Position numbers and translations under genes: made by a program | The notes under the pieces: generated by a model | The model's input: the letters and a program-made list of their open reading frames with translations, nothing else | Database searches by the model: none | What the model was told of the DNA's origin: nothing | Shown here: one piece after another, positions 45,085 through 64,000 of the stretch | How positions within the stretch are numbered: position 1 is the stretch's first letter | How the letters are laid out: each line of letters starts with the position of its first letter | Assembly (NCBI RefSeq): GCF_014764445.1 | Contig: NZ_CP061721.1 | Coordinates: 1,736,001 to 1,800,000, forward strand | Reading direction: 5' to 3' | DNA length: 64,000 nt | From: Pseudarthrobacter sp. BIM B-2242 | Lineage (GTDB): Bacteria; Actinomycetota; Actinomycetes; Actinomycetales; Micrococcaceae

Positions 45085-45097
45085 GAGCTTGCCGAAC

Positions 45098-46396
45098 TTG
45101 AACCGTCAGAAGAATATAGAGCAGTCCACTTTCCGCCGTCCGACATTGGCCCGACATAGCGTCGCCTTCAACATCGATGTCCCGAAGGGAATCATCTATG
45201 GCGACGGCGGCGGGCAGAAGCTGGGCTGTATGTCGGCGAACTTCCGCTCCCCTGAAGGTGGCCGTGTCACCTTCGCCATCGCCAATGAGGCCCTGGCTCT
45301 GCACACGCCTATTCCCACGCCGGACGGCTGGACGACGATGGGCGAGCTGCAGGCGGGGGACATGATTTACGGCACCACCGGCGAGCCGGTGACGGTGGCC
45401 GAGGCTTTTCCTGTCCAAGTGGGCCGTGACTGCTTCCGTGTCACCTTCTTGGATGGAACCTCCGTCATCGCTTCCGACGGCCACTTGTGGAAGGCCAAAC
45501 CCTCCGGTTGGCCGAAGCAGTACAACAGGCTATGGACTACCCGCCAGATGTACGAGCACAAGGCAAAGCGCTGGGCCATCCCCATTCCAGGTCCGCAGCA
45601 GCGCCCCGAGCGCGATCTGCCCATGGATCCCTACCTGCTCGGCTACTGGTTGGGCGACGGGAGTACCGCCGGCTGCAACATCACCGTCGGGGATGAGGAC
45701 CTGGAGGCGTTCACCGCCAACATGATTGAAATCGGCGTGACCGTCCGCCCGGTCGGTACGAAGAAGGGCGCCGCCAACCGCATGACCTTCTCAGACAAAA
45801 GCGGCTTCGGCGCTGACATGGGCGGCGAGCAGGCCAGGGCGCTCCGCCTACTGCCCTGCTACCGCGACAAGCACATACCCGAGGAATACTTCCTGGCCTC
45901 CATCGACCAGCGCATCGCCCTCCTGCAAGGCCTGCTCGACTCCGACGGCTGCGCAGCCAAGCCCGGCGTCATCTTTGTCGGCAGGGAGCGGCTGTCCCGC
46001 GATGTATTTCAGCTCCTGTCCTCACTGGGTGAGCGGCCGACCATCGCCTTCAGCGCCGACGCACGGTCCCGGGACGGCGGGACGTGGCGGGTATCGTTCA
46101 ATCCGAGGTATGTCACCAAATGCTTCCGGCTGGCCCGGAAGCAGGCAAAGGTCGTCAGGGCCACGCGTACTGAAACATACATTGCTTCCATTGAGCCGGT
46201 CGAGTCCGTGCCGGTGCGCTGCATCCGCGTCGATGCCGAAGACTCACTGTTCCAGGCCGGCGAATCATGCCAGTTGACCCACAACACTCACCACTGGACT
46301 CCGGGCCAGCACGGACCCGCGTTCTACGAGCTCACCAACAACCCGAGCAAGGGTCCAGGGCTGGCTGCTGTGCATGAAGGGGAGCACGGTCGATGA
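45098..46396 (+). CDS. phage terminase large subunit fragment interrupted by an intein
   Basis: A 432-residue frame made of three parts. Residues 1-64 and 397-432 join to read as the middle of an actinophage terminase large subunit: NFRSPEGGRVTFAIANE followed by THHWTPGQHGPAFYEL, the site of the conserved ETHHW motif. Residues 65-396 are an intein. The extein lacks the N-terminal Walker A part and most of the C-terminal nuclease, so the terminase is a relic. TTG 45098 has AGGAG 10 bases upstream; TTG 45089 is too close to it. Confidence 0.8.
   Translation: MNRQKNIEQSTFRRPTLARHSVAFNIDVPKGIIYGDGGGQKLGCMSANFRSPEGGRVTFAIANEALALHTPIPTPDGWTTMGELQAGDMIYGTTGEPVTVAEAFPVQVGRDCFRVTFLDGTSVIASDGHLWKAKPSGWPKQYNRLWTTRQMYEHKAKRWAIPIPGPQQRPERDLPMDPYLLGYWLGDGSTAGCNITVGDEDLEAFTANMIEIGVTVRPVGTKKGAANRMTFSDKSGFGADMGGEQARALRLLPCYRDKHIPEEYFLASIDQRIALLQGLLDSDGCAAKPGVIFVGRERLSRDVFQLLSSLGERPTIAFSADARSRDGGTWRVSFNPRYVTKCFRLARKQAKVVRATRTETYIASIEPVESVPVRCIRVDAEDSLFQAGESCQLTHNTHHWTPGQHGPAFYELTNNPSKGPGLAAVHEGEHGR
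45290..46285 (+). other. 332-residue intein with LAGLIDADG homing endonuclease (class-3 type)
   Basis: It begins with Ala (ALALHTPIPTPDGW) instead of Cys or Ser and ends in LTHN before a +1 Thr. Block B contains DGHLW, block F contains VRCIRVDAEDSLF. Trp in block B, Cys in block F and Thr at +1 form the WCT set that defines class 3 inteins, which use the block-F Cys as the first nucleophile. Two LAGLIDADG helices, LLGYWLGDGS and LLQGLLDSDG, mark the homing endonuclease. All splicing motifs look intact although the host gene is truncated. Confidence 0.82.
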
Positions 46397-48368: not shown

Positions 48369-51300
48369 GTGACCCGTCGAAGCTCTGATCGTTCAAGTGC
48401 TGAAGCGCGCCGACGGCGAGAGGCGCAGCAGCGCCGCGGCGACCAAGCCCGATTACGGTCGGCAGAGTCCATTTTGCCAGACTCGCCGACGGTACCGCAG
48501 TCCGATTTGTGGGCCGCTTCACGGTCTGGCGCCCGTGCCGGGCGCGGGTTCCGTTACCAGGATGTCGTTGCGGCTCTTATTGTGCTCAGTCTGTGGAGCG
48601 AGGGCGAGGCGACTGCGCTGGTGACCCCGGAGGGGTACGACGACATTTCCGTGCAGTCCCGCGCCGGGTCTCATTTCATTCAAGTAAAGTCGCGGCGCGA
48701 GACCGCAGGCCAGTTTCCGGCGACAGAACTGCGCAAACATCTGCGCTCCGTTGCTGCGGCTTGGGTGAAGCGCCGGGATGTGGGGCTTCCGCCCGCGACA
48801 ATCCTGCTGCTTGAGCGTCCCGTCGCAGGCATTCCGGTACCTGGGTGGGACAGCGCCCGGCGGTCGGACTTGACCGCCGGGCCGGAGTTGTCCTGCGAGT
48901 TAGATACGGTCTCCCTCGGAGATGACCAGGCGACGGCAGCATTTGCAGCCTCGATTTCTGTCGCGCTGTGTCCAGATCCCAAGGCTCGAGCGATCACTAT
49001 TGTCGCCACAGCCCGTAGCATTCCAGAGTCGCTGGCCGAAATCGTTGTGGCTGCGGTTTGTACGCAGATCGGCGAGACCAGCAACGCGAACGCCGATCGC
49101 GATGCGGCAAACCGTGCAGTTGTCGAAGTTTCCGGAATCGATGCCCTCGTAGACCACGTCCTCGCGACCGTCGACCTGGAACTGCTTGACGAGGCAAGGT
49201 CGCTCGGGGTCTGTGAGGCCGTAGATTGGGGAACGCCAGGCGACGGATCGGACCTACGGCAGGGCGCGCACGTCGGTGCTCTACATGTCGCTACCGGAAT
49301 GCTTGTGCCCCGACCTGACCTCACGCGGCAGGTGATCGAAGTCGCCGAGGCGCGCCGCCTGGCGGTCATCAGCGGGCCGAGCGGTAGTGGCAAGAGCGTG
49401 CTCGCCTACACCGCCGTTCACCAGACCCGCACCTCGTATCGCTGGCAGCAAGTTCACTCGCTGACACCCTCGGGGCGCACCGGACGTGATGCTGTTGCGC
49501 TGCTCGTTGCGCGCATTGAGTCCCTGCGGCCGAGCGTCTATGCTCCGGTCGGCGTTATGATTGATGACGCGGGGCGCCATGACCCTCGCCTACTCGACCG
49601 GCTGCTGCGGCGGCTCGCGGATCTGCCGAACGTGATCACGGTGGTTTCGATACGCGAGGAGGACCGCTTCCCGGTCCCGCTGCTGTCGTCCATCGCCACG
49701 ATAACGCCCATGCTGGACGAAGCCTTCGCGGAGCAGCTCTGGCGCGACTACCGGGTCCACGATCTCACCGCTTGGGCCGGCTGGCGGGAGCCAGCCGAGC
49801 GCGCAGGCGGCCTCCTCCTGGAATACGTCACTCTGCTCACTGAAGGCGAGAACCTCGATACCGTCGTCGGTGCGCAAGTCCGGGCGCGCGAAGCCGACCA
49901 GAGTCGGTACCTCGAGCTTGAGATTCTTCGCCTTGCTTCTTGTGCTAACCAATACGGTGTTGCTGTCCCCGCATATGCGATCCAATTGGTTTTAGGTGCC
50001 GATCCTGGCGCATTCACCGCAGCCAGCCGTCGCCTCATCGACGAGCACCTTGTCATCGAGGATTCGAGCAGTCTCTTACGACCGCTGCACGAAATCCGCT
50101 CGTCAGCGCTCGCCCGTGCGGCCCACCCGTTCGGACAGCGGGAGAGCCTTCGGCGCGTCGTCGCACTCGTGCCCAGCACCGAACTCGCACGATTCCTTCG
50201 ACGCGCACTCGAGTCCGGGGCCGACTCGGCCGTGATGATCCAAGCCGCAACCGAGCGCGTCACACGCGATCACGAACTCGAGACGCTCGTAGCGGTCGCG
50301 TCGGCCTTCCGCGCCGACGGGCTGCGACGGCGGGCCGACGATTGGAGGCGTATCCTCGACGAATCTGGGGTTGATGCAGGCAACGCTGTTACTGCGTTCA
50401 CGTTGTCCCGCACCCAGCCGCGCCACGACACTGACCAGCTCTTCAAGCCTGAGATTGTCGCTGCCATACAGCGGCTCCGCAGTGTCCCGACCGATCCGGA
50501 TCTCCAACCCCTCTGGCGAAGGATAGACGCGAAGCTAGTCGAAGAACTCGTGACCACTGCGGTCTCCGATGACGATGCAACTCATCTCCTTTTACAAGCC
50601 ATCACCGTACTTCGCGGTTTTGACGCCACAGCCATGGAAGCCGCGGCGGACGCAATCGGCACCCGACTAACGGTATGGGCGCTGAACTACGCAGCCGACA
50701 TCACCGAGGCGTTGCGCCGAGCGGCACCCGAACTCGCGGAACGCGCTGTCACTGCAGCCGGCGGCGAGCAACTACTTTTGCGCAGGATCGCAACAGAGAC
50801 GCCGTGGCTAGCGGCGCTGGACCGCACGGATGACGGCGTTGCCGGAAGCTGGATCTTCATCGACGAGGAACTACAACCGGATCAGAACGAGTCGGTCGTC
50901 GAAGTCTGCCGGCTCGCCCTCGCTCTCGCCCCCACGGCGATGATCGCGAAAGTCGGTGCGGTCGATGCCCTCGGACGTTTGGTCAAGCTCGGCGACTACC
51001 CGCTCGTCGACAAAGCAATTCCGCGGGAGAATCTGCCCCACAGTCTCGAAGTTTCCGAAAATAGAGCCCAAGCCCGAGCACTGGCCCGAAAATACGGCGC
51101 CGGCACGCTGACATCTAAGCTCGCGGCTGAGGCCGAAGCGCTCGGGGCCCTAGTCGAGCTGCTCCCAGAGATCACCATCGCCCATCTGGGCGATCGAGCC
51201 GTACCACAAGCGACTGTTCGCCGGTTCGATGCGGCAACTGCACTGCTTTCAGAGATGGATGCTCCGGCAGACGAAGATTACACGGACGAGGTCCCTGGTG

Positions 51301-52481
51301 CGCTCGGCGACTACCCCGTTGAAAGCACCGCCGTCAATGTCGTGCGATCGCTTCTCCAGCATGTCATTCCAAACCTCGCGCGGGCAGCCATCGCTGAGCG
51401 ACGCCCCATCTTGGCTGTCGGAACGCTTGACGACCTCATCCGTAAGGTCGGCACATTGATCGAACTTGACCGATTCCGTTACCTCCCTGATCCGCCGGAC
51501 TGCGCTCTGCTGCTCGACTGTCTCCGCCACCTACGCGTGATCGCGTCCGCCAGTGCAGGAGCGGACACTCCGGTCCGCGCATCCATGCGTGCCGCCGCTG
51601 GCCGACACACAGGAAATGCAAGGATTGAGGCTGCGGCCGCTGTTGCCACCGAACGCTCCTCGGCAGCCCTCCAGAAAGAGTCCGTGCGAATACGAGATGC
51701 GCTCACCGGCTCGGGGTTCGCCGTATCGGTCGACCCGAGCTGGTCCGACTACACGATGATTAGTTGGCCACCCGGAGACCTAGCGATCACGGTGGAAGGG
51801 GAAAGTGCCCTTACTCATCTGAAATCCGTTGCGGCCCTCGCGGATGCCGCGCGGGATGCTCGTGAACAGCCGGACCGCCGCATGTGGATCGGACTTCGCT
51901 CGCCCGATGGGTACCCGCGTGCCACGATCTTCCAGGTCGCACATGACGGGGTTATCCCACTTGGCAATCGCGAAGCGCCCTCCGCGTTCGCAGGTTCCCT
52001 CGCCTCGACACCGATTTCCGGTCCCTACGCGACTTATCTGCAACTGGCTCGTCGTCTCTCGTCGATCGCCGCGATCATTGCGATCCGCGGAAGTTCTCTG
52101 AGCCCCAACGAAGAAGGCCGAGTTCTCGAAGAATCGTGGGCGGGTCTCGTCAGCGTCAAAGCGCAACTCGATGAGCTCACGTCCGCGCATGCTGGAACCG
52201 AATACGTTTCGGTGCTCAGCAACATATTGACGACCATCGGCACGGCAATCACGGATGACCTGTCCACGGCCATGGACCTAGCAGAGAGAGGTGGATCGGG
52301 GTGGGGCGAGATCGCGAGCCTGCAAAGCCTGCTGCTGCTTGACCCGGACAGAGCGGCCATAGCGGGCACCGACGCTGCGGTCGTCTACGGCACGGCAGCC
52401 GTCATCGCGGACGTCGAGGACGATTTTGAGGGCGCCGATGACCGCATTGCACACATGCATGAGCACGCTTCAAGTTCCTAA
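48369..52481 (+). CDS. predicted antiphage nuclease-STAND-like ATPase (Avs-like)
   Basis: A 1,370-residue protein. Residues ~57-235 resemble the Cap4/DUF4297-type dsDNA nuclease: GRGFRYQDVVAAL, then VTPEGYDDISV and HFIQVKSR, giving the E/D...QxK active site (E88, D91, Q105, K107). A P-loop NTPase follows with VPRPDLTRQV, Walker A GPSGSGKS (336-343) and Walker B VGVMIDDAG (~394-402). The remaining ~700 residues are helical, as in STAND sensor regions. This order matches Avs-type antiviral STAND proteins, which sense phage proteins and degrade DNA. No close family was recognised. The GTG start is leaderless. Confidence 0.75.
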   Translation: MTRRSSDRSSAEARRRREAQQRRGDQARLRSAESILPDSPTVPQSDLWAASRSGARAGRGFRYQDVVAALIVLSLWSEGEATALVTPEGYDDISVQSRAGSHFIQVKSRRETAGQFPATELRKHLRSVAAAWVKRRDVGLPPATILLLERPVAGIPVPGWDSARRSDLTAGPELSCELDTVSLGDDQATAAFAASISVALCPDPKARAITIVATARSIPESLAEIVVAAVCTQIGETSNANADRDAANRAVVEVSGIDALVDHVLATVDLELLDEARSLGVCEAVDWGTPGDGSDLRQGAHVGALHVATGMLVPRPDLTRQVIEVAEARRLAVISGPSGSGKSVLAYTAVHQTRTSYRWQQVHSLTPSGRTGRDAVALLVARIESLRPSVYAPVGVMIDDAGRHDPRLLDRLLRRLADLPNVITVVSIREEDRFPVPLLSSIATITPMLDEAFAEQLWRDYRVHDLTAWAGWREPAERAGGLLLEYVTLLTEGENLDTVVGAQVRAREADQSRYLELEILRLASCANQYGVAVPAYAIQLVLGADPGAFTAASRRLIDEHLVIEDSSSLLRPLHEIRSSALARAAHPFGQRESLRRVVALVPSTELARFLRRALESGADSAVMIQAATERVTRDHELETLVAVASAFRADGLRRRADDWRRILDESGVDAGNAVTAFTLSRTQPRHDTDQLFKPEIVAAIQRLRSVPTDPDLQPLWRRIDAKLVEELVTTAVSDDDATHLLLQAITVLRGFDATAMEAAADAIGTRLTVWALNYAADITEALRRAAPELAERAVTAAGGEQLLLRRIATETPWLAALDRTDDGVAGSWIFIDEELQPDQNESVVEVCRLALALAPTAMIAKVGAVDALGRLVKLGDYPLVDKAIPRENLPHSLEVSENRAQARALARKYGAGTLTSKLAAEAEALGALVELLPEITIAHLGDRAVPQATVRRFDAATALLSEMDAPADEDYTDEVPGALGDYPVESTAVNVVRSLLQHVIPNLARAAIAERRPILAVGTLDDLIRKVGTLIELDRFRYLPDPPDCALLLDCLRHLRVIASASAGADTPVRASMRAAAGRHTGNARIEAAAAVATERSSAALQKESVRIRDALTGSGFAVSVDPSWSDYTMISWPPGDLAITVEGESALTHLKSVAALADAARDAREQPDRRMWIGLRSPDGYPRATIFQVAHDGVIPLGNREAPSAFAGSLASTPISGPYATYLQLARRLSSIAAIIAIRGSSLSPNEEGRVLEESWAGLVSVKAQLDELTSAHAGTEYVSVLSNILTTIGTAITDDLSTAMDLAERGGSGWGEIASLQSLLLLDPDRAAIAGTDAAVVYGTAAVIADVEDDFEGADDRIAHMHEHASSS

Positions 52482-54192: not shown

Positions 54193-55320
54193 ATGGACGC
54201 AGATACTCAACTATTGCAAGCTGGCGCCCGCGCGCTGCAACGCATTGATGCTCTGCAGATGAAGCACTTGGATGTTGCCGCGGCGGTAGGAATGACTCCT
54301 GACGCCTTATCTCGCTCCCTGCGGGGCCAGCGCAACTTCAAGCTGGTAGAGATGGCTGCCTTGGCCGACCATCTAAATACCTCGATTCACTGGTTGGTGA
54401 CCGGTGAACGCGATCCGTACGAGGTTAAGCTGTCGGCTCGCCACGAATGGGATGCGCACTCGCGGTCAGATCAAGACCATGATTGGCGCATAGCCAAACG
54501 CGTTGGAAATGACATGGCGGCTATATACCATCAGGCTCAGCTGGGACCGGCGGGCAAGCCTTCCTCCGTTCCGAGGGGATGGACGCCACTTCAAGGGGCT
54601 CAGTGGGCTCGCCAGCACCTGGAAGCCGCTTTGGCTCCCGACGAGGTCGTGGCTGATCATTTGCCGGATCTGCTTGAGCGCGTCTTCGCGATAGACGTAT
54701 TTGTGATCGACTATGACACAACATTCGACGCCTACTCGGCAGAAGCCAACGGCGCCAAGTTTGTCGTGCAAAAGACGACTGGCGCTTGGTGGAGGGCGGT
54801 CTTCAATATCGCCCACGAGTTCGGCCACATCCTTCACAATGACCTGGCGTACAGCGATGAGGAACGGACTGTACGCGCCGATGAATGGTGGGCAAACAAC
54901 TTCGCCGCCGAACTCCTGCTCCCACAGGCTGACGTAAGGGCCTTCGACTGGGACGCTGGGAGTGTCAAAGATTTGGCTGAGTTTGTGGAGAGCCACCGAG
55001 TATCCACTCTCGCGACGGCAAATCGGGTCAACAGTCTTGGGATTTCGCCGAATGAACGGCTCGCTGCCGCTTTGACTTGGAAGACACCCAGGCTTATGCA
55101 AGCCCGTCACTCGCCTTTTTGGGTTTCGCCTATGGACGGGGTGTATCGCAGGCCGCGGTTTCCTTCTCGAGTCGTCGAGGCTCACCAATTGGCTGTTGCC
55201 GAAGGACGTGCGAATGGTCAGACTTTGGCGTGGATGTTGGGAGTTCCTGTAGAAGACGTTGACCCAACATGGGTTGCTGGGCCGTCGATGACTGCTGAAC
55301 GCCTGCACGCTGTCCTGTGA
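54193..55320 (+). CDS. XRE-family HTH protein with ImmA/IrrE metallopeptidase domain
   Basis: A 375-residue protein. An XRE helix-turn-helix occupies ~20-70 (DVAAAVGMTPDALSRSLRGQ) and an ImmA/IrrE (COG2856) zinc peptidase follows, with HEFGHILHND at ~208-217. Family members cleave or displace repressors to switch phage, ICE or toxin-antitoxin genes. GGGGGAG precedes the ATG. It overlaps the PIN gene by 4 bases (GTGA), forming a two-gene module often seen as a toxin-antitoxin or defence unit. Confidence 0.85.
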   Translation: MDADTQLLQAGARALQRIDALQMKHLDVAAAVGMTPDALSRSLRGQRNFKLVEMAALADHLNTSIHWLVTGERDPYEVKLSARHEWDAHSRSDQDHDWRIAKRVGNDMAAIYHQAQLGPAGKPSSVPRGWTPLQGAQWARQHLEAALAPDEVVADHLPDLLERVFAIDVFVIDYDTTFDAYSAEANGAKFVVQKTTGAWWRAVFNIAHEFGHILHNDLAYSDEERTVRADEWWANNFAAELLLPQADVRAFDWDAGSVKDLAEFVESHRVSTLATANRVNSLGISPNERLAAALTWKTPRLMQARHSPFWVSPMDGVYRRPRFPSRVVEAHQLAVAEGRANGQTLAWMLGVPVEDVDPTWVAGPSMTAERLHAVL

Positions 55321-55907
55321 ACGACGCGAAGGGCCAAATTGAGTTCGTTTTTCCTGACACAAGCCTTCTGATGAACTTTGCTGCCGTGAGCCGCATAGAC
55401 CTAGTCAAGGCGGTCGTTAAAGATCGGGGTTGTTGGACGGAAGCCATTCGCGACGAGGTTCAAAGGTGGTGCCAGGAATCGCGGTACCAAGCGCTGGCGG
55501 AGGTATTCGACTTCATGCCACCGGAGCCCCATATTGCCAGATCTGAAGAGATGGCCACCGGCGAGGAGATCCGGCGTCGGCTAGCTAAACCCGGTGACCC
55601 TCGCGGTCAGCACTGGGGTGAGTGTGAGACCTTGGCCGTGATTCACCACCGTTACAACGAAAAGACTGTGTTGGTTCTCTCCGAGGACGCAGGCGTTCTA
55701 GCCGAATGTCGTCACCAGCGTGTCGAAACTGTAACCACAAAGGTCCTACTTGAGCTCGCAGCTATACGAGGTCATATCTCTTGGCTTCAAGCAGAGGAGA
55801 TCGCACGACTGTTGAAAGATATGGGGGAGCCTGTGCTGAATTATCCGCCAGCCATTCGCCCTCCTATGCCTTCGGGTCTGCGCCCTCAGCCGGCGGGAGA
55901 CGCATAG
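55317..55907 (+). CDS. PIN-like domain protein paired with the ImmA/IrrE gene
   Basis: A 196-residue protein with a PIN-type nuclease pattern: Asp in FVFPDTSLLMNF, acidic residues in HWGECETLAV and Asp in LVLSEDAGVLAE. It is expected to be an RNase, possibly the toxin of the pair, controlled by the upstream XRE-ImmA/IrrE protein. The GTG start overlaps the upstream stop, so the proteins are made together. The C-terminal tail is Pro-rich. Confidence 0.78.
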   Translation: MNDAKGQIEFVFPDTSLLMNFAAVSRIDLVKAVVKDRGCWTEAIRDEVQRWCQESRYQALAEVFDFMPPEPHIARSEEMATGEEIRRRLAKPGDPRGQHWGECETLAVIHHRYNEKTVLVLSEDAGVLAECRHQRVETVTTKVLLELAAIRGHISWLQAEEIARLLKDMGEPVLNYPPAIRPPMPSGLRPQPAGDA

Positions 55908-56950: not shown

Positions 56951-57796
56951 GTGCGCATGGCGGTGGAGAAGTTCGGGGCGTCCGAACGCTTCGCCTGCAA
57001 GGTTTTGGGGCAGAACCGGTCCGCGTTCCGCAAGAAGAAACCCGACATGGGCTTCGAGGAAGCCCAGCTCCGCTCGGAGCTACGTGCCATCGCGGTCAAG
57101 CACCCGGCGTGGGGCTGGCGGAAGGCCCGCTGGCACCTGCTGGCCCAGCCGGCCTGGGACGGGGTGGCGCTGAACAGGAAGCGGGTGCGCCGGCTCTGGC
57201 GCGACGAAGGCCTGACCTGTAAACCCAGGGCGAGGAAGAAGCGCCGCACCGGGCCCGGCGCCGGGGAACAGAAACGCCTCACAGCCCAGTACCCGATGCA
57301 TGTGGTCAGCTTCGACTTCCAGTCCGACGTGACCTCCTGCGGGCGGCATATCCGGTTCTTCAACGTCATCGACGAATACACGCGCACGGCGCTGGCGGTC
57401 ATCCCGCGGAGGTCGTTCAAAGCATCGGATGTGGTCGCGGTGCTGGAGAACATCATCGCCGAAACCGGCGCCGCACCGGCCTACCTCAGGTGTGACAACG
57501 GCCCCGAATTCACGGCCGCCGCACTGATCGAATGGTGTAATACCGCCGGAGTCGACACCGCGTTCATCGACCCGGGATCACCCTGGCAGAACGGCTTCAT
57601 CGAATCCTTCAACGCCCAATTCAGAAGGGAACAACTCTCCGGAGAAATCATGGACACCATGGCCGAAGCCAAGTATTTGGCCGAGGAATGGAAAGCTATC
57701 TACAATCATGAACGGCCCCACGGATCCCTGGACGGCATGACGCCGAAACGCTACTGGGAAACATGGACGCAAGAAAACCAATTAGCTACCGCATAG
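56951..57796 (+). CDS. IS3-family transposase OrfB
   Basis: A 281-residue DDE integrase. Catalytic residues appear in VVSFDFQSD (first D), YLRCDNGPEFTA (second D) and WQNGFIESFNAQFRREQL (E). It starts at GTG 56951 if made alone; the frame is also open upstream through GGGAAAATTC, where a -1 shift from OrfA would occur. All motifs are intact, so the copy may be active. Confidence 0.9.
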   Translation: MRMAVEKFGASERFACKVLGQNRSAFRKKKPDMGFEEAQLRSELRAIAVKHPAWGWRKARWHLLAQPAWDGVALNRKRVRRLWRDEGLTCKPRARKKRRTGPGAGEQKRLTAQYPMHVVSFDFQSDVTSCGRHIRFFNVIDEYTRTALAVIPRRSFKASDVVAVLENIIAETGAAPAYLRCDNGPEFTAAALIEWCNTAGVDTAFIDPGSPWQNGFIESFNAQFRREQLSGEIMDTMAEAKYLAEEWKAIYNHERPHGSLDGMTPKRYWETWTQENQLATA

Positions 57797-59485: not shown

Positions 59486-59898
59486 TGTCGGCTACCGAAG
59501 TTTGTGCATCTGCTCCGACCACTTGTGAAGACACCCTCAGGGTGGAGTGCAATTCGATATGACCGAGAGGCGCAATAGCCGCGATATTAGGTGATCCAAT
59601 CTCCTGCGGACCGGAAGCGTTTCTGGTCTGCCCTCGGCGCTACACCATAGGTGGCACCAAAGAGAGGGCGGAGGGTCTCATCACTGCCTGACCTACTGCG
59701 CATCGCAACTGCTGACGTGACGGAATGCCATCTTCGACGTGCCCGGCCTTTGGGACCGCTGAGTGCGTGCGAGCTGTTCCCAGAGCTGACCCATATCGAT
59801 AGGGTGATCACGAGCGGTGTCGATGTAGGATCGCTCGGTTTGGAACCAGGCGCCGAAACCGGAGCCTGGGTTACGCCATTCGATTCTTGGGAGGAAGC
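59486..59898. other. upstream region of the repeat-peptide operon
   Basis: A frame from GTG 59651 is open through this region into the repeat array, but it has no ribosome-binding site or recognised domain, and in the array its codons vary at positions that change the amino acid. I treat it as non-coding leader/promoter sequence. Confidence 0.4.
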
Positions 59899-60138
59899 AT
59901 GTCTAATCCAGAGCAGGATCCAAGCCAGCAGGAGGGCCCAGCCGACGGCGGCGCGGACGGCATCCCAGGCGCCCACGACGGCGGTGCCGACGGCGGTGCC
60001 GACGGGGGTGCTGACGGCGGTGCTGACGGGGGTGCTGACGGGGGTGCTGACGGGGGTGCCGATGGCGGTGCTGACGGGGGTGCCGATGGCGGTGCTGACG
60101 GGGGTGCCGATGGCGGCGTCGAACAACAGGGCAGCTGA
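59899..60138 (+). CDS. Ala-Asp-Gly-Gly repeat peptide, candidate RiPP precursor
   Basis: A 79-residue peptide. A short N-terminal part (MSNPEQDPSQQEGP) is followed by ADGG, ADG-IPGAH, DGG and then eleven perfect ADGG units, ending VEQQGS. There is no signal peptide or membrane helix. GGAGG lies 4 bases before the ATG. The gene ends 2 bases before an iron/2-oxoglutarate oxygenase gene. The leader-plus-repeated-core layout and the adjacent oxygenase suggest that the Asp (or Gly) residues are hydroxylated or otherwise modified. No known RiPP class was recognised. Confidence 0.7.
   Translation: MSNPEQDPSQQEGPADGGADGIPGAHDGGADGGADGGADGGADGGADGGADGGADGGADGGADGGADGGADGGVEQQGS
59986..60117 (+). repeat. 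12-bp tandem array, 11 units (ADGG codons)
   Basis: Eleven head-to-tail 12-bp units of GCY GAY GGS GGY. Units differ only at third codon positions of the ADGG frame, all synonymous. The other forward frame would change amino acids. Confidence 0.9.
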
Positions 60139-60140
60139 GT

Positions 60141-61343
60141 TTGAGCTCTACCACTGACTTCCAGGACCCCGGCCCGGGGAGGGATGCCGGGGTCCTGGAA
60201 ACACGCCTGATTGGCATCGCCCATGAGAAATTCGCCAGCGACGTCTGGGGGCGCACTGCGCTGCTCACGCGTGGTGTCAGCGACTTCTCCGATTTGTTCT
60301 CTGCAAAGGCCGTCGACGAACTGATCTCGCGCCGCGGGCTGCGGACACCTTTCCTGCGTGTAGCCAAGGGTGGCTCGACACTTCCCGACTCCTCATTCAC
60401 CTCGCCGGCAGGCGTTGGCGCCACTATCTCTGACCAGCTCGACGACACCGAACTTTGGCGCAAATTCGCCGACGGAGCCACTCTCGTCCTACAGGCGCTG
60501 CATCGCACGTGGGAGCCGGTGTCGAGCTTCAGTACGCAGCTAAGTACCGAGCTCGGACATCCTGTGCAGGCCAATGCATACATCACCCCGCCCCAGAACC
60601 GCGGTTTCGACGATCACTACGACATCCACGACGTCTTCGTTCTGCAGATCGAGGGAACAAAGCGCTGGATCATCCATGAGCCGGTCCACATGGATCCGCT
60701 GCGTAGCCAGCCCTGGACAGATCGCCGCTCCGCCGTCGCCGAGGCCGCTAAAGGCACGGCCTACATCGACACGGTCCTCAAGCCCGGTGATGTCCTCTAC
60801 CTGCCACGTGGTTGGTTGCATGCCGCCCAGGCACAGGGCAAAGTCTCGATCCATCTCACCCTGGGAGTTCACAACTGGACTCGCTACGGGCTGGCCGAAC
60901 ACCTGGCGCAGGCCGCGCTTGCAGCACTGTGCGACGATCCCGAGATGCGCCGTTCCTTGCCATTGGGCGTGGAGGGACCCGATGGGGAGATCGCCGCCGT
61001 GCGTGAACGTCTCGCCGCCGCAATCTCTGAGGCTGATACCACTTCCCTTTTCCACCGCGCCCGGAGGGGACAGGGACGCCCGGCTCCGCTAGGCCCCGTG
61101 GCCCAGCTCGCGGCCCTCGAGCGCCTCGGCCCCGCGTCGCTGGTGCGGCTTCGGGATGCACTGGAACCACGGCTCGAGGGCTCACGCCTGACTACCCGCG
61201 TGGGCTGGCTCGATTTCCCGGAGACACATCTGCCGTCCGTCAAGCTCCTGCTCGACGGCAAGGATCACCCCGTGACGGATCTTGGCGTTGAACTCGTCGA
61301 ACGGCTGTTACGCGCAGGAGTTCTCGTCCCCGTTGAACAGTGA
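60141..61343 (+). CDS. JmjC-domain/cupin ribosomal-oxygenase-like (ROX) hydroxylase
   Basis: A 400-residue Fe(II)/2-oxoglutarate oxygenase of the cupin_4/JmjC (ROXA, YcfD) type. The metal triad is H159-x-D161 in FDDHYDIHD and H227 in LPRGWLHAAQ; K174 or nearby in IEGTKRW fits 2OG binding. The C-terminal third resembles the dimerisation/winged-helix part. Known members hydroxylate ribosomal-protein residues; here the gene follows a repeat peptide by 2 bases, making that peptide the likely substrate. The start is TTG 60141, with translation probably coupled; its stop shares a base with the next ATG. Confidence 0.85.
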   Translation: MSSTTDFQDPGPGRDAGVLETRLIGIAHEKFASDVWGRTALLTRGVSDFSDLFSAKAVDELISRRGLRTPFLRVAKGGSTLPDSSFTSPAGVGATISDQLDDTELWRKFADGATLVLQALHRTWEPVSSFSTQLSTELGHPVQANAYITPPQNRGFDDHYDIHDVFVLQIEGTKRWIIHEPVHMDPLRSQPWTDRRSAVAEAAKGTAYIDTVLKPGDVLYLPRGWLHAAQAQGKVSIHLTLGVHNWTRYGLAEHLAQAALAALCDDPEMRRSLPLGVEGPDGEIAAVRERLAAAISEADTTSLFHRARRGQGRPAPLGPVAQLAALERLGPASLVRLRDALEPRLEGSRLTTRVGWLDFPETHLPSVKLLLDGKDHPVTDLGVELVERLLRAGVLVPVEQ

Positions 61344-62248
61344 TGTCCCCCGTGGCCCCAACAAAACGTTTCTTCTGCGCAGAAAGCGCTCGGACGCGCG
61401 GCGACTCGATGGCAGGCACGGCGTCGCCCGGCTCGGTTTGGATCCTCATAGAGTACCGGGGCGGGTGGCCGCCCAACGGCTTCGACGGCCTTGATCTTGA
61501 CGCTGGAACAAAAGCCCTCGTAGTCTCGGCTGCGCGGACGGCACGTGCACGGGTCCTCTTGGTGCGGCGGCCCGGCCCACGCCGGCGCCTCGGTCCCGGA
61601 CGTTGGGCCGTACTGCGCCATCAAAGCGCCGACGCCTATCAACAGCTATGGGGAACGTGGGACCGGGACGAGGACCTGGCAAAGATCGTCCCAGCCCTGA
61701 CATCGCCCGGACATCCTGGCTTGCCGCCGGTCATCCTGATCTGCGCTCATGGTCAGCATGACCCCTGCTGCGCCGTGCGGGGACGGCCCGTAGGACGTGC
61801 ACTCAGTGAGCGATGGCCAGAGCTGGTGTGGGAGTGCTCCCACGTTGGCGGTGACAGGTTCGCAGCTAACGCCGTCGTCGCCCCCGACGGTGTGTACTAC
61901 GGTGGACTCGATGCCGAGTCATCCGTCACCACGATCGAGAATCACCTCGCCGGTCGCATCCACGCAGAGTATCTGCGCGGATACACGGATCTCATCCCAC
62001 CACAGCAAGCCGCCGTCGCTGCCGTGCTCGGACGTTTCGGCCCCGCCGGCCGGAATGACTATCTGGTCACTGAGACCTTGAGCGAGGGCAACCATTGGCG
62101 CATCCACATCACCGGCCGCCCGCCCCACCCGGCGCATATCGACGTGGAACTGCGGGCCCACCGCTCACCGCCTTGTCAGCTGACCTGCCGAGGGCCGGCG
62201 CTGGGCTCGGTCATAGTCTACGAACCCACCTCCATCCGCAGAACCTGA
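61343..62248 (+). CDS. sucrase/ferredoxin-like family protein
   Basis: A 301-residue protein of the Suc_Fer-like family, a thioredoxin-like ferredoxin fold. The conserved Cys/His segments are ICAHGQHDPCCAVRG and ECSHVGGDRFAANAVV with the YGGL region, likely binding a [2Fe-2S] cluster. The ATG shares one base with the oxygenase stop (TGATG), so the two are translationally coupled. In context it may keep the oxygenase iron reduced or carry out a second redox step on the peptide; it may equally act elsewhere. Frequent actinobacterial family of unknown biochemical role. Confidence 0.82.
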   Translation: MSPVAPTKRFFCAESARTRGDSMAGTASPGSVWILIEYRGGWPPNGFDGLDLDAGTKALVVSAARTARARVLLVRRPGPRRRLGPGRWAVLRHQSADAYQQLWGTWDRDEDLAKIVPALTSPGHPGLPPVILICAHGQHDPCCAVRGRPVGRALSERWPELVWECSHVGGDRFAANAVVAPDGVYYGGLDAESSVTTIENHLAGRIHAEYLRGYTDLIPPQQAAVAAVLGRFGPAGRNDYLVTETLSEGNHWRIHITGRPPHPAHIDVELRAHRSPPCQLTCRGPALGSVIVYEPTSIRRT

Positions 62249-63065
62249 CACTTGCGGACCGCACAGGCTGCGCTGGAGATCCATCTGGTCAACGGCAGCT
62301 CCCCGTCACCAAGCGATGGCAGCCACTAACGCGTACGATCACGAGGCGCCAAGAAGGCTTTCCAGCATGAACGATCACCAAAGGTGTTGCCCGGATTGTC
62401 CACTGTTTCTGGTCGAACGCCCATAAATGTCAAAGCTGAATGTCCGGCGATAGCTGTCAGACATACCGGCCGGCCCGTGGAGATTGATGTCCCACCGGCT
62501 TCAACATCCTTTTCCTGAAGTTTCCGCAGTCCCTCATCATCCTCTCAAGCCTCCAGATTGCAGAGCTCGTGGCCGAACGGCTGGACAGCAGTCAGGGCTG
62601 GCTCCCGCGATGGCAGGTCTCTAGGGCGGCCTGACTTCAGTGGTGGACAATCTGACGCCAGAGCTGCAGATGCGTAGGCTCCAAAGGGGCACGTGAGCGG
62701 AGGCCAACGGCGTCCTTTAGAGGGATGCGCTCATCATCCCGAGGTGCAGTGAGGCACGTTTATAAGTGTGCACGTCGTGCGCACTTCGGGCTCCGGATGG
62801 GTCGTACTGCAGCCGGACCGGGCCAGAGGGTTCAGAGGACTCCGTGTCCACCAATTCAGGAATCCGTAGGCGGGCAGGAGCCTCCCCAAGCTGCCGCAGT
62901 TGCACGGAACGCACCCGTTGGATTTCATTTCGAAACTTGAGCAAAACCTGCGCCTTTATGCAGCGTGCTTCTGTTTGAATGACCTTGTACAATTCCTTGC
63001 CTCCCTTGTCAGAGCAAGAACCTGGGCAACCTCTCGAGGCACTAGCTGATGCTTGGGGGAACGAA
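62249..63065. other. 817-base region without supported gene
   Basis: Several short frames occur on both strands, but none has start signals or recognised features. A plus-strand stretch near 62,500-62,635 reads like a possible gene remnant. No RNA gene or repeat was found. Confidence 0.45.
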
Positions 63066-64000
63066 ATGCCGGGAGAGCGTGTTCGGTTCGATCGCAGGAT
63101 TATCGAGGCTGGGATCGCAGCGGCTTTGGTGCCGGTGTTCTTCCTAGGCCTGGCAGGGCCTTTGCCTGCGGTGAGCGCCCGGGACGGCCTGACCACTTCG
63201 GCTGATCTGTTGGAGACCCTTGAAATGCGGCCGGAAGCAGGCGTGCCTTTGGATCCCAAGGGCTTTGGCCGTTGGATTGATGCTGACAGAGACGGCTGTG
63301 ACACTGCCAACGAGGTGCTCATTGCAGCGTCCCACCCGTCCATGATCGTCGTTGAGCCACCCTGCACAATCATTTCCGGCAGCTGGATTTCCCTATACGA
63401 CCGCGTATTTGCATCAGATCCAGCGGAAATGACGGTCGATCATATGGTCCCGCTCGAGGAAGCCTGGCAGTCAGGGGCCTGGGCCTGGACGGCCGAACAG
63501 CGGCGCGACTTTGCCAACGACCTCAAGTACCCGGACACGACTCTCAGGGCCGTGACAAGGGCCGTCGATGACGACAAAGGATCCAAAGACCCGGCCCAGT
63601 GGCAGCCGCCAGGTTCTGGCGTGCAATGCGGCTATGCAGACAAATGGATCTTTGTGAAGTCCCGGTGGAACTTGAGCGTTGACCCCGCCGAGTACGCCAC
63701 GCTGATGGAGATGCTCGGCGATAACTGCCCCGAAGGAACCCTCATTCCCGAACGCGGCCTGACCCCAGGCCTGGGACCCGCGGCCATTATCGGCGAAGTA
63801 AGCAGCGTGGGAACGGTGTTCAGCCTCCTCACAGTGGAGGCATACGCAGAGGACGGTTCCGTGGCCGGGCGCACGTCTGTGGATGCCGACGGCAGCTACG
63901 AGCTGACCGGGCTCGCACCGGGAACCTATCGGCTCAAGTTCCTCGGCGGAACCAGCGGCGCCCTGGACCGGTGGTACAGCAGCGACAGTCCGGGCCAGGA
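63066..64000 (+). CDS. secreted HNH/DUF1524-like nuclease with regulatory-like tail (3' end outside window)
   Basis: At least 311 residues, running off the window. Residues ~13-38 form a signal peptide (IIEAGIAAALVPVFFLGLAGPLPA). The domain at ~60-235 has DADRDGCDTANEVL and the His-containing VDHMVPLEEAWQSGAW followed by RRDFANDLKYP, typical of secreted HNH/GmrSD-C-like nucleases of actinobacteria. A carboxypeptidase-regulatory/CNA-B-like repeat then starts (VAGRTSVDADGSYELTGLAPGTYRL). Probably a cell-surface or extracellular DNase. GGGGGA precedes the ATG. Confidence 0.82.
   Translation, partial: MPGERVRFDRRIIEAGIAAALVPVFFLGLAGPLPAVSARDGLTTSADLLETLEMRPEAGVPLDPKGFGRWIDADRDGCDTANEVLIAASHPSMIVVEPPCTIISGSWISLYDRVFASDPAEMTVDHMVPLEEAWQSGAWAWTAEQRRDFANDLKYPDTTLRAVTRAVDDDKGSKDPAQWQPPGSGVQCGYADKWIFVKSRWNLSVDPAEYATLMEMLGDNCPEGTLIPERGLTPGLGPAAIIGEVSSVGTVFSLLTVEAYAEDGSVAGRTSVDADGSYELTGLAPGTYRLKFLGGTSGALDRWYSSDSPGQ

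Follow-up and report, generated by a model that had tools for sequence, protein, structure and literature searches.

A recurrent actinobacterial gene set pairing an Asp-rich repeat peptide with a ROX-type JmjC oxygenase and a Suc_Fer protein: a candidate RiPP-like module

The characterised ROX oxygenases (NO66/RIOX1, MINA53/RIOX2 and bacterial YcfD) target ribosomal proteins. Here we consider a relative of these enzymes encoded in a 64,000-nucleotide stretch of the Pseudarthrobacter sp. BIM B-2242 genome (contig NZ_CP061721.1; this whole stretch is called the window below), where it is the middle one of three head-to-tail genes at 59899-62248, the others encoding a 79-amino-acid peptide rich in ADGG repeats and a protein of the Suc_Fer family. 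All coordinates are window positions, and all window features given are on the + strand. Unlike the described ROX oxygenases, the enzyme of this cassette adjoins an Asp-rich peptide gene in nearly every related locus, usually together with a Suc_Fer gene, and has a patchy distribution. The best explanation, and in our judgement a reasonably probable one, is an undescribed module, akin to those for ribosomally synthesized and post-translationally modified peptides (RiPPs), that beta-hydroxylates the repeated Asp residues.

Several RiPP systems share part of this logic. In biphenomycin-type clusters (BipG, BpmG, PbsQ) it is a JmjC- or cupin-like Fe/2-oxoglutarate enzyme that adds a hydroxyl group to a residue in a RiPP precursor, but the target is an ornithine made from Arg, the clusters include MNIO, B12 radical SAM and metalloprotease genes, and neither an Asp repeat nor a Suc_Fer protein figures in the portions of the published descriptions compared here. 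Beta-hydroxyaspartate in a ribosomal peptide, the product type proposed here, is attributed to PesHI (nitrilobacillins) and to SmaO and SmaX (a graspetide cluster), as cited in PMC13097080; PesHI, however, is an MNIO with a partner, a single named Asp is hydroxylated, and the other partner enzymes differ. The graspetide corallotide has a large precursor whose repeated motifs a 2-oxoglutarate/Fe(II) enzyme hydroxylates, although a graspetide synthetase is needed and the hydroxylated residue is a cross-linked Lys; no such synthetase gene is conserved in the cassette loci. As for the third gene, the function of the Suc_Fer family has been called "not well understood" (PMC8482512). The window protein resembles the family members Aim32 and Apd1 in its Suc_Fer domain, CX8C motif and thioredoxin-like ferredoxin fold, and resembles Aquifex ferredoxin by fold, but it has HX3D in place of HX3H, an extra N-terminal region and a cystatin-like C-terminal domain. 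The first-pass annotation of this locus, made from the letters alone, knew of no described class with this set of genes, and we found no prior description in open-licence PMC papers, a search in which subscription papers mostly fall outside and slash-written names may be missed. A RiPP-like module is a known kind of system; the pairing of precursor, ROX enzyme and Suc_Fer protein is undescribed.

The peptide gene (59899..60138, ATG start) follows a ribosome binding site, GGAGGA, at 59890..59895. Two bases after it, the 400-amino-acid oxygenase gene (60141..61343) opens with TTG at 60141 and closes with TGA at 61341-61343, and the gene for the 302-amino-acid Suc_Fer protein (61340..62248) starts either at GTG 61340, overlapping the oxygenase gene by 4 bases, or at ATG 61343, overlapping it by 1 base. 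The layout given in the first-pass annotation holds up well: the ADGG peptide does end 2 bases before an oxygenase with an intact HxD...H site, its eleven units are those in tandem (there are 12 in total), and the one-base overlap with the Suc_Fer gene applies to the ATG start.

The peptide is of precursor type, judging from its sequence and from the conserved Asp-rich short open reading frames (ORFs) found beside related JmjC genes. Asp accounts for 15 of its residues and His for one, while Lys and Arg are absent; DGG occurs 13 times, and the eleven tandem ADGG units form the core (59986..60117). Between these units variation is confined to third codon positions; the corresponding tally for DGG units in many genes presupposes DGG and is uninformative by itself, and only the window's tandem array was used. 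The N-terminal part MSNPEQDPSQQEGP (59899..59940), a candidate leader, is kept in most Arthrobacter, Kocuria and Streptomyces peptides. All 11 matches to a DGGADGG coding pattern in the 4.78-Mb genome fall inside the peptide ORF, although the pattern by itself is unspecific, being present in 61 of 101 genomes of the genus. No Pfam family matched the window peptide up to E = 1, no NCBIfam match was found for the peptides of six relatives, and Pfam gave one weak RHS match, below cut-off, for those of five relatives; such precursors are easily missed because they are of low complexity and, in the cases tested, without a Pfam or NCBIfam model. Upstream, the GGAGG ribosome site is invariant in 18 aligned Streptomyces-type loci and nearly so in 16 Arthrobacter/Kocuria loci, and the latter alignment places the most conserved stretch besides that site at 59775..59820, about 80-125 bases 5' of the ATG. 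This promoter-like block is a candidate promoter only. No iron or zinc operator was recognised 5' of the peptide gene in the 34 loci when compared with consensus boxes (the best match had 5 mismatches).

To place the locus among its relatives, loci were collected by oxygenase similarity. Twenty-three of 99 kin genomes had an oxygenase match, two of these very weak; a scan of GTDB contigs gave 393 confirmed matches, of which the best 80 were used, biasing the set toward close relatives; and 55 of 396 genomes drawn across the Actinomycetota had a match, the 58 places listed all being examined. The final count holds 148 distinct oxygenases, 139 of which, scoring at least 170 bits, were taken as relatives, and neighbours were counted at loci with enough upstream or downstream sequence. 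An Asp-rich short ORF lies directly 5' of the oxygenase in 131 of 132 relatives, and a Suc_Fer gene 3' of it in 128 of 137. At 430 bits or above (99 oxygenases) the peptide is present in 95/95 and Suc_Fer in 94/98, and from 170 to 430 bits (40 oxygenases) in 36/37 and 34/39, versus 0/8 and 1/9 for the nine outgroup JmjC proteins below 170 bits. The lone Suc_Fer locus below 170 bits (L199) scored low because its contig is short, and a peptide is present there on inspection. The sole relative without a scored peptide (L189) has a repeated Asp-containing peptide of different make-up, and L147, scored negative for Suc_Fer, does carry it (tblastn and PF06999). Seven loci gathered through a peptide pattern (two of them distinct oxygenases) are left out of the count; including them gives 133/134 for the peptide and leaves Suc_Fer unchanged. 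The peptide detector, which replaced a fixed 15% Asp cut-off that performed poorly, gave 2 positives 5' of 752 other long open frames, a set in which many members may not be genes. Thus the recurrent pairing that the first-pass annotation proposed to look for in actinobacteria is there, and the situation it named as damaging, an oxygenase widespread without any repeat peptide, did not arise.

Among 32 representative loci no fourth conserved gene was found. Thirteen open-frame families (90 amino acids or longer) recur in at least 4 of these loci; leaving the three genes aside, they are the same genes read antisense or in another frame, or are placed at unrelated distances. The unit appears to consist of exactly three genes, and the ATP-grasp ligase expected of a graspetide is not among the conserved neighbours in the 32 loci. 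A defence-system identity was dropped, as PADLOC had no match for the peptide, the JmjC protein or the Suc_Fer protein.

Presence and absence follow the same pattern. The oxygenase is found in 19 of the 101 genus genomes, and a relative of the Suc_Fer protein in the identical 19. In 17 of these the peptide was seen beside the oxygenase, and G488 and G494 have pattern matches whose positions are not listed. In one of the 19, G519, the oxygenase gene has an in-frame stop (G519:C51:9741-10895). Broken copies are also seen in L053, where a frameshift near the end of the JmjC gene led us to reject a candidate JmjC-Suc_Fer fusion, and in L131, which by eye has a Suc_Fer remnant. In the oxygenase tree the Streptomyces enzymes cluster with those of Arthrobacter and Kocuria, other families of the window's order lying further out, which suggests transfer between families. 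One of the Streptomyces carriers of the cassette is a strain of S. albidoflavus (L072). A plasmid- or virus-borne cassette was rejected, as a plasmid collection gave no match at E 1e-40 and no cassette copy was confirmed in viral contigs. Distances among JmjC and among Suc_Fer proteins correlate at 0.69 over 50 loci, as common descent would also give.

In the DGG class, which takes in Arthrobacter, Kocuria, Streptomyces and others, the core has a EGPADGGAAGTPGVHDGGADGG-like unit or plain ADGG or ADSG. Lineages from other classes of the phylum, and a few from the window's order (L020, L021), have cores built of the DGDATDADGTDA kind, of DPAGS or DADST, or of longer repeats. The N-terminus is conserved independently of the core: most of the window's clade has a PEQDPxQQ-like sequence, and in distant lineages a motif of the type L-[ST]-D-[DE]-D-I-x-T precedes varied Asp-rich repeats. 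This motif also appears, as MALNDDDITT-like starts, among DGG-class peptides from other families, and an Amycolatopsis protein labelled "BatC protein" in one source has it too. A strict regular expression for the motif matched 27 of 38 non-DGG peptides and 8 of 99 DGG peptides, sets into which a few wrongly chosen ORFs or starts have slipped (such as those at outgroup loci L196 and L203). At the level of sequence, the distant-lineage peptides show the logic of a conserved leader followed by a variable core; in the window's clade the N-terminus is also conserved but of another kind. Mapped onto an oxygenase tree of 47 rows, core type needs 3 changes, compared with 14.7 when the labels are shuffled; some real peptides are labelled "none" in this tree because the first detector missed them, Asp-rich peptides being in fact present at L123, L127, L130, L132 and L021. 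Further kinds of core repeat, SADGTDQGVEGGTYGPRDA-like in L129 (L153) and GPTEDDENLDAPGEHSQDTGDE-like in L189, stand beside related JmjC genes without an adjacent Suc_Fer gene.

The oxygenase, of the JmjC/cupin_4 type, matches JmjC_2 (PF08007) with E = 2.6e-28, and its iron triad, H159 and D161 in the HYD motif (60615-60623) and the distal H227 (60819-60821), is invariant in 12 diverse aligned sequences, the window's included, and in 50 closer ones. Residues from about 16 to 400 of its predicted structure match NO66, MINA53 and YcfD over the whole length, including the C-terminal part after the JmjC core that is expected of a ROX enzyme and that we take to be the dimerisation and winged-helix domains. 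Its closest named relatives, at 89-90% identity, are from Pseudarthrobacter and Arthrobacter. The Suc_Fer-like family (PF06999) matches the window protein with 59.6 bits against a curated cut-off of 34.9 (E = 5.8e-16) and, at E 0.01, 12 of 12 diverse members. By fold, an N-terminal region is followed by the thioredoxin-like ferredoxin domain (residues 129-215) and the cystatin-like domain (218-302). As in bis-His thioredoxin-like ferredoxins there is a CX8C motif (C135/C144, both invariant in aligned relatives), but the HX3H of the Aim32/Apd1 type is replaced by H168 and D172; D172 is invariant in 50 sequences and kept in 11 of 12 diverse ones, with Cys in L018. An LTC motif at residues 281-283, within the cystatin-like domain, is invariant in 50 relatives.

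That the peptide and oxygenase would form a functional pair is strongly supported, because of their adjacency, the matching distribution of the oxygenase and Suc_Fer genes within the genus, the core type tracking the enzyme tree, and the leader motif of the distant lineages. Since the genes travel together so faithfully, it is very likely that the oxygenase modifies the peptide. In the scheme we propose, the ribosome would make a short peptide consisting of a recognition part at the N-terminus and a repetitive core rich in Asp (in the window, ADGG x 11). The ROX-type oxygenase would bind it, perhaps via the C-terminal domain, and, using Fe(II), O2 and 2-oxoglutarate, would hydroxylate the repeated residues sequentially, most likely at the Asp beta-carbon. 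FIH, another oxygenase, hydroxylates Asn and Asp in repeats. The first-pass annotation had likewise named the repeated Asp, or alternatively Gly, as target; Asp is the best fit, being the residue that every core type seen contains, an argument that is partly circular in that the detector demanded Asp, and we regard the Asp beta-carbon as the modification site with only somewhat better than even confidence. The Suc_Fer protein, with its thioredoxin-like ferredoxin domain, may hold the oxygenase iron reduced or serve a second redox step, a choice of roles to which we would give slightly less than an even chance. As 2-oxoglutarate oxygenases turn over without an electron donor, and some lineages have no Suc_Fer protein, this protein is likelier to be an iron-reducing helper or to carry out an optional second oxidation than to take part in the core reaction itself. 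Such a pathway would yield a polyanionic peptide rich in hydroxyaspartate that might plausibly bind metal, although a metal-binding function is speculative and rather doubtful. With no linked export or cleavage gene, the product may remain a long peptide, or housekeeping enzymes may process it. It is an even question whether such loci amount to an undescribed RiPP class spanning the actinobacterial phylum, in which a dedicated ROX-type JmjC enzyme, partnered by a Suc_Fer protein, would processively hydroxylate core Asp residues to give polyhydroxyaspartate peptides.

Other targets for the oxygenase have to be considered. Its nearest solved relatives are histidyl hydroxylases, and 88 of the 104 distinct peptides contain HDGG, so the enzyme might hydroxylate the His of HDGG, as NO66 and MINA53 do on ribosomal proteins, with the Asp repeats a mere scaffold. 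However, 13 of the 104 have no His after residue 15, and thus His cannot be the general target; moreover, 49 of 135 peptides have no His in about the last 50 residues, among them the window peptide, whose one His, against 15 Asp, lies earlier. We consider this quite unlikely. The repeat might also be cut or remodelled by a different oxidation, for example hydroxylation of the Gly alpha-carbon that cleaves the backbone, or desaturation or decarboxylation of Asp, with Suc_Fer completing the reaction. DGG is found in 94 of the 104 peptides, a regular repeat would suit repeated cleavage, a second redox protein is usually present, and no protease is conserved; yet Gly is scarce in some cores (fewer than three in about the last 50 residues in 3 of 135), in others the residue after Asp is often Ala, Ser or Thr, and the ROX fold is known for side-chain hydroxylation. 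Such chemistry also seems unlikely.

The oxygenase might instead act on another protein, for example a ribosomal one as the characterised ROX enzymes do by their entry names, the peptide being a co-transcribed, disordered and unmodified Asp-rich factor such as a metal buffer. Against this stand the peptide gene beside 131 of 132 members of the JmjC clade and none of 8 outgroup JmjC genes, and the agreement of core type with the enzyme tree; modification of the ribosome would also not be expected of a cassette present in 19 of 101 genus genomes, and we regard this possibility as improbable. Finally, GC-rich tandem repeats can hold frames open, so that the repeat ORF might be a chance open frame in low-complexity DNA. 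The third-position-only variation in the window array, the conserved ribosome site, start and N-terminus, the detector control and the recurrence beside related oxygenases led us to reject this reading, whose probability we consider negligible.

Several points nevertheless weigh against a RiPP-like, Asp-hydroxylating module. The confidence of the oxygenase model is middling (mean predicted local distance difference test score, pLDDT, 75), and the closest structural relatives of the enzyme hydroxylate His or Arg of ribosomal proteins. The Asp requirement of the detector partly builds in the presence of Asp in all cores, and the close relatives among the 139 oxygenases are not independent. The window's own clade is without the DDDI-type leader motif, which 91 of the 99 DGG-class peptides miss by regular expression. 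The peptide of L137 (the L014 locus), counted as present, is acidic but non-repetitive, and there is no adjacent Suc_Fer gene. An intact adjacent Suc_Fer gene is in fact absent at eight distinct loci, suggesting that it is not strictly required everywhere: L137 has a copy elsewhere in its genome; L143, L141 and L153 have none found anywhere in their genomes; L131 has the remnant mentioned above and no other found in its 81%-complete genome; and L179, L189 and L191 have none adjacent, the loci themselves being what was examined. Lastly, no protease or transporter gene, common though not strictly defining in RiPP clusters, is conserved in the 32 loci. The "new RiPP system" of the first-pass annotation is a reasonable description as far as the conserved pair of short precursor and modifying enzyme and the leader/core pattern go, but the release of a small product is unsupported.

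If the proposed modification is correct, the bacterial ROX-type JmjC enzymes, known as ribosome oxygenases, gain a second job in peptide modification, a Suc_Fer protein is assigned to a pathway, and a hydroxyaspartate-polymer type is added to the ribosomal peptides. Polyhydroxyaspartate peptides would then be a possible ribosomal counterpart of the hydroxyaspartate siderophores, or a metal buffer.

Elsewhere in the window, an IS3-type integrase gene (rve, rve_3) lies at 56951-57796, about 2.1 kb before the cassette, and a gene at 62979-64000, whose protein runs past the window end, matches GmrSD_C and, more weakly, carboxypeptidase-regulatory-like and SdrD_B-like models. A 435-amino-acid ORF at 45089-46396 is intein-like with a LAGLIDADG part by eye, its Pfam match being weak and below cut-off. 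A candidate defence gene at 48369-52481 encodes a protein of 1370 amino acids in which a Cap4-type nuclease domain is accompanied by weak matches to STAND NTPases. At 54193-55907 a gene with helix-turn-helix and IrrE-type (Peptidase_M78) domains overlaps a gene for a 196-amino-acid protein, which has no Pfam match and is PIN-like by eye, in a layout resembling that of toxin-antitoxin pairs.
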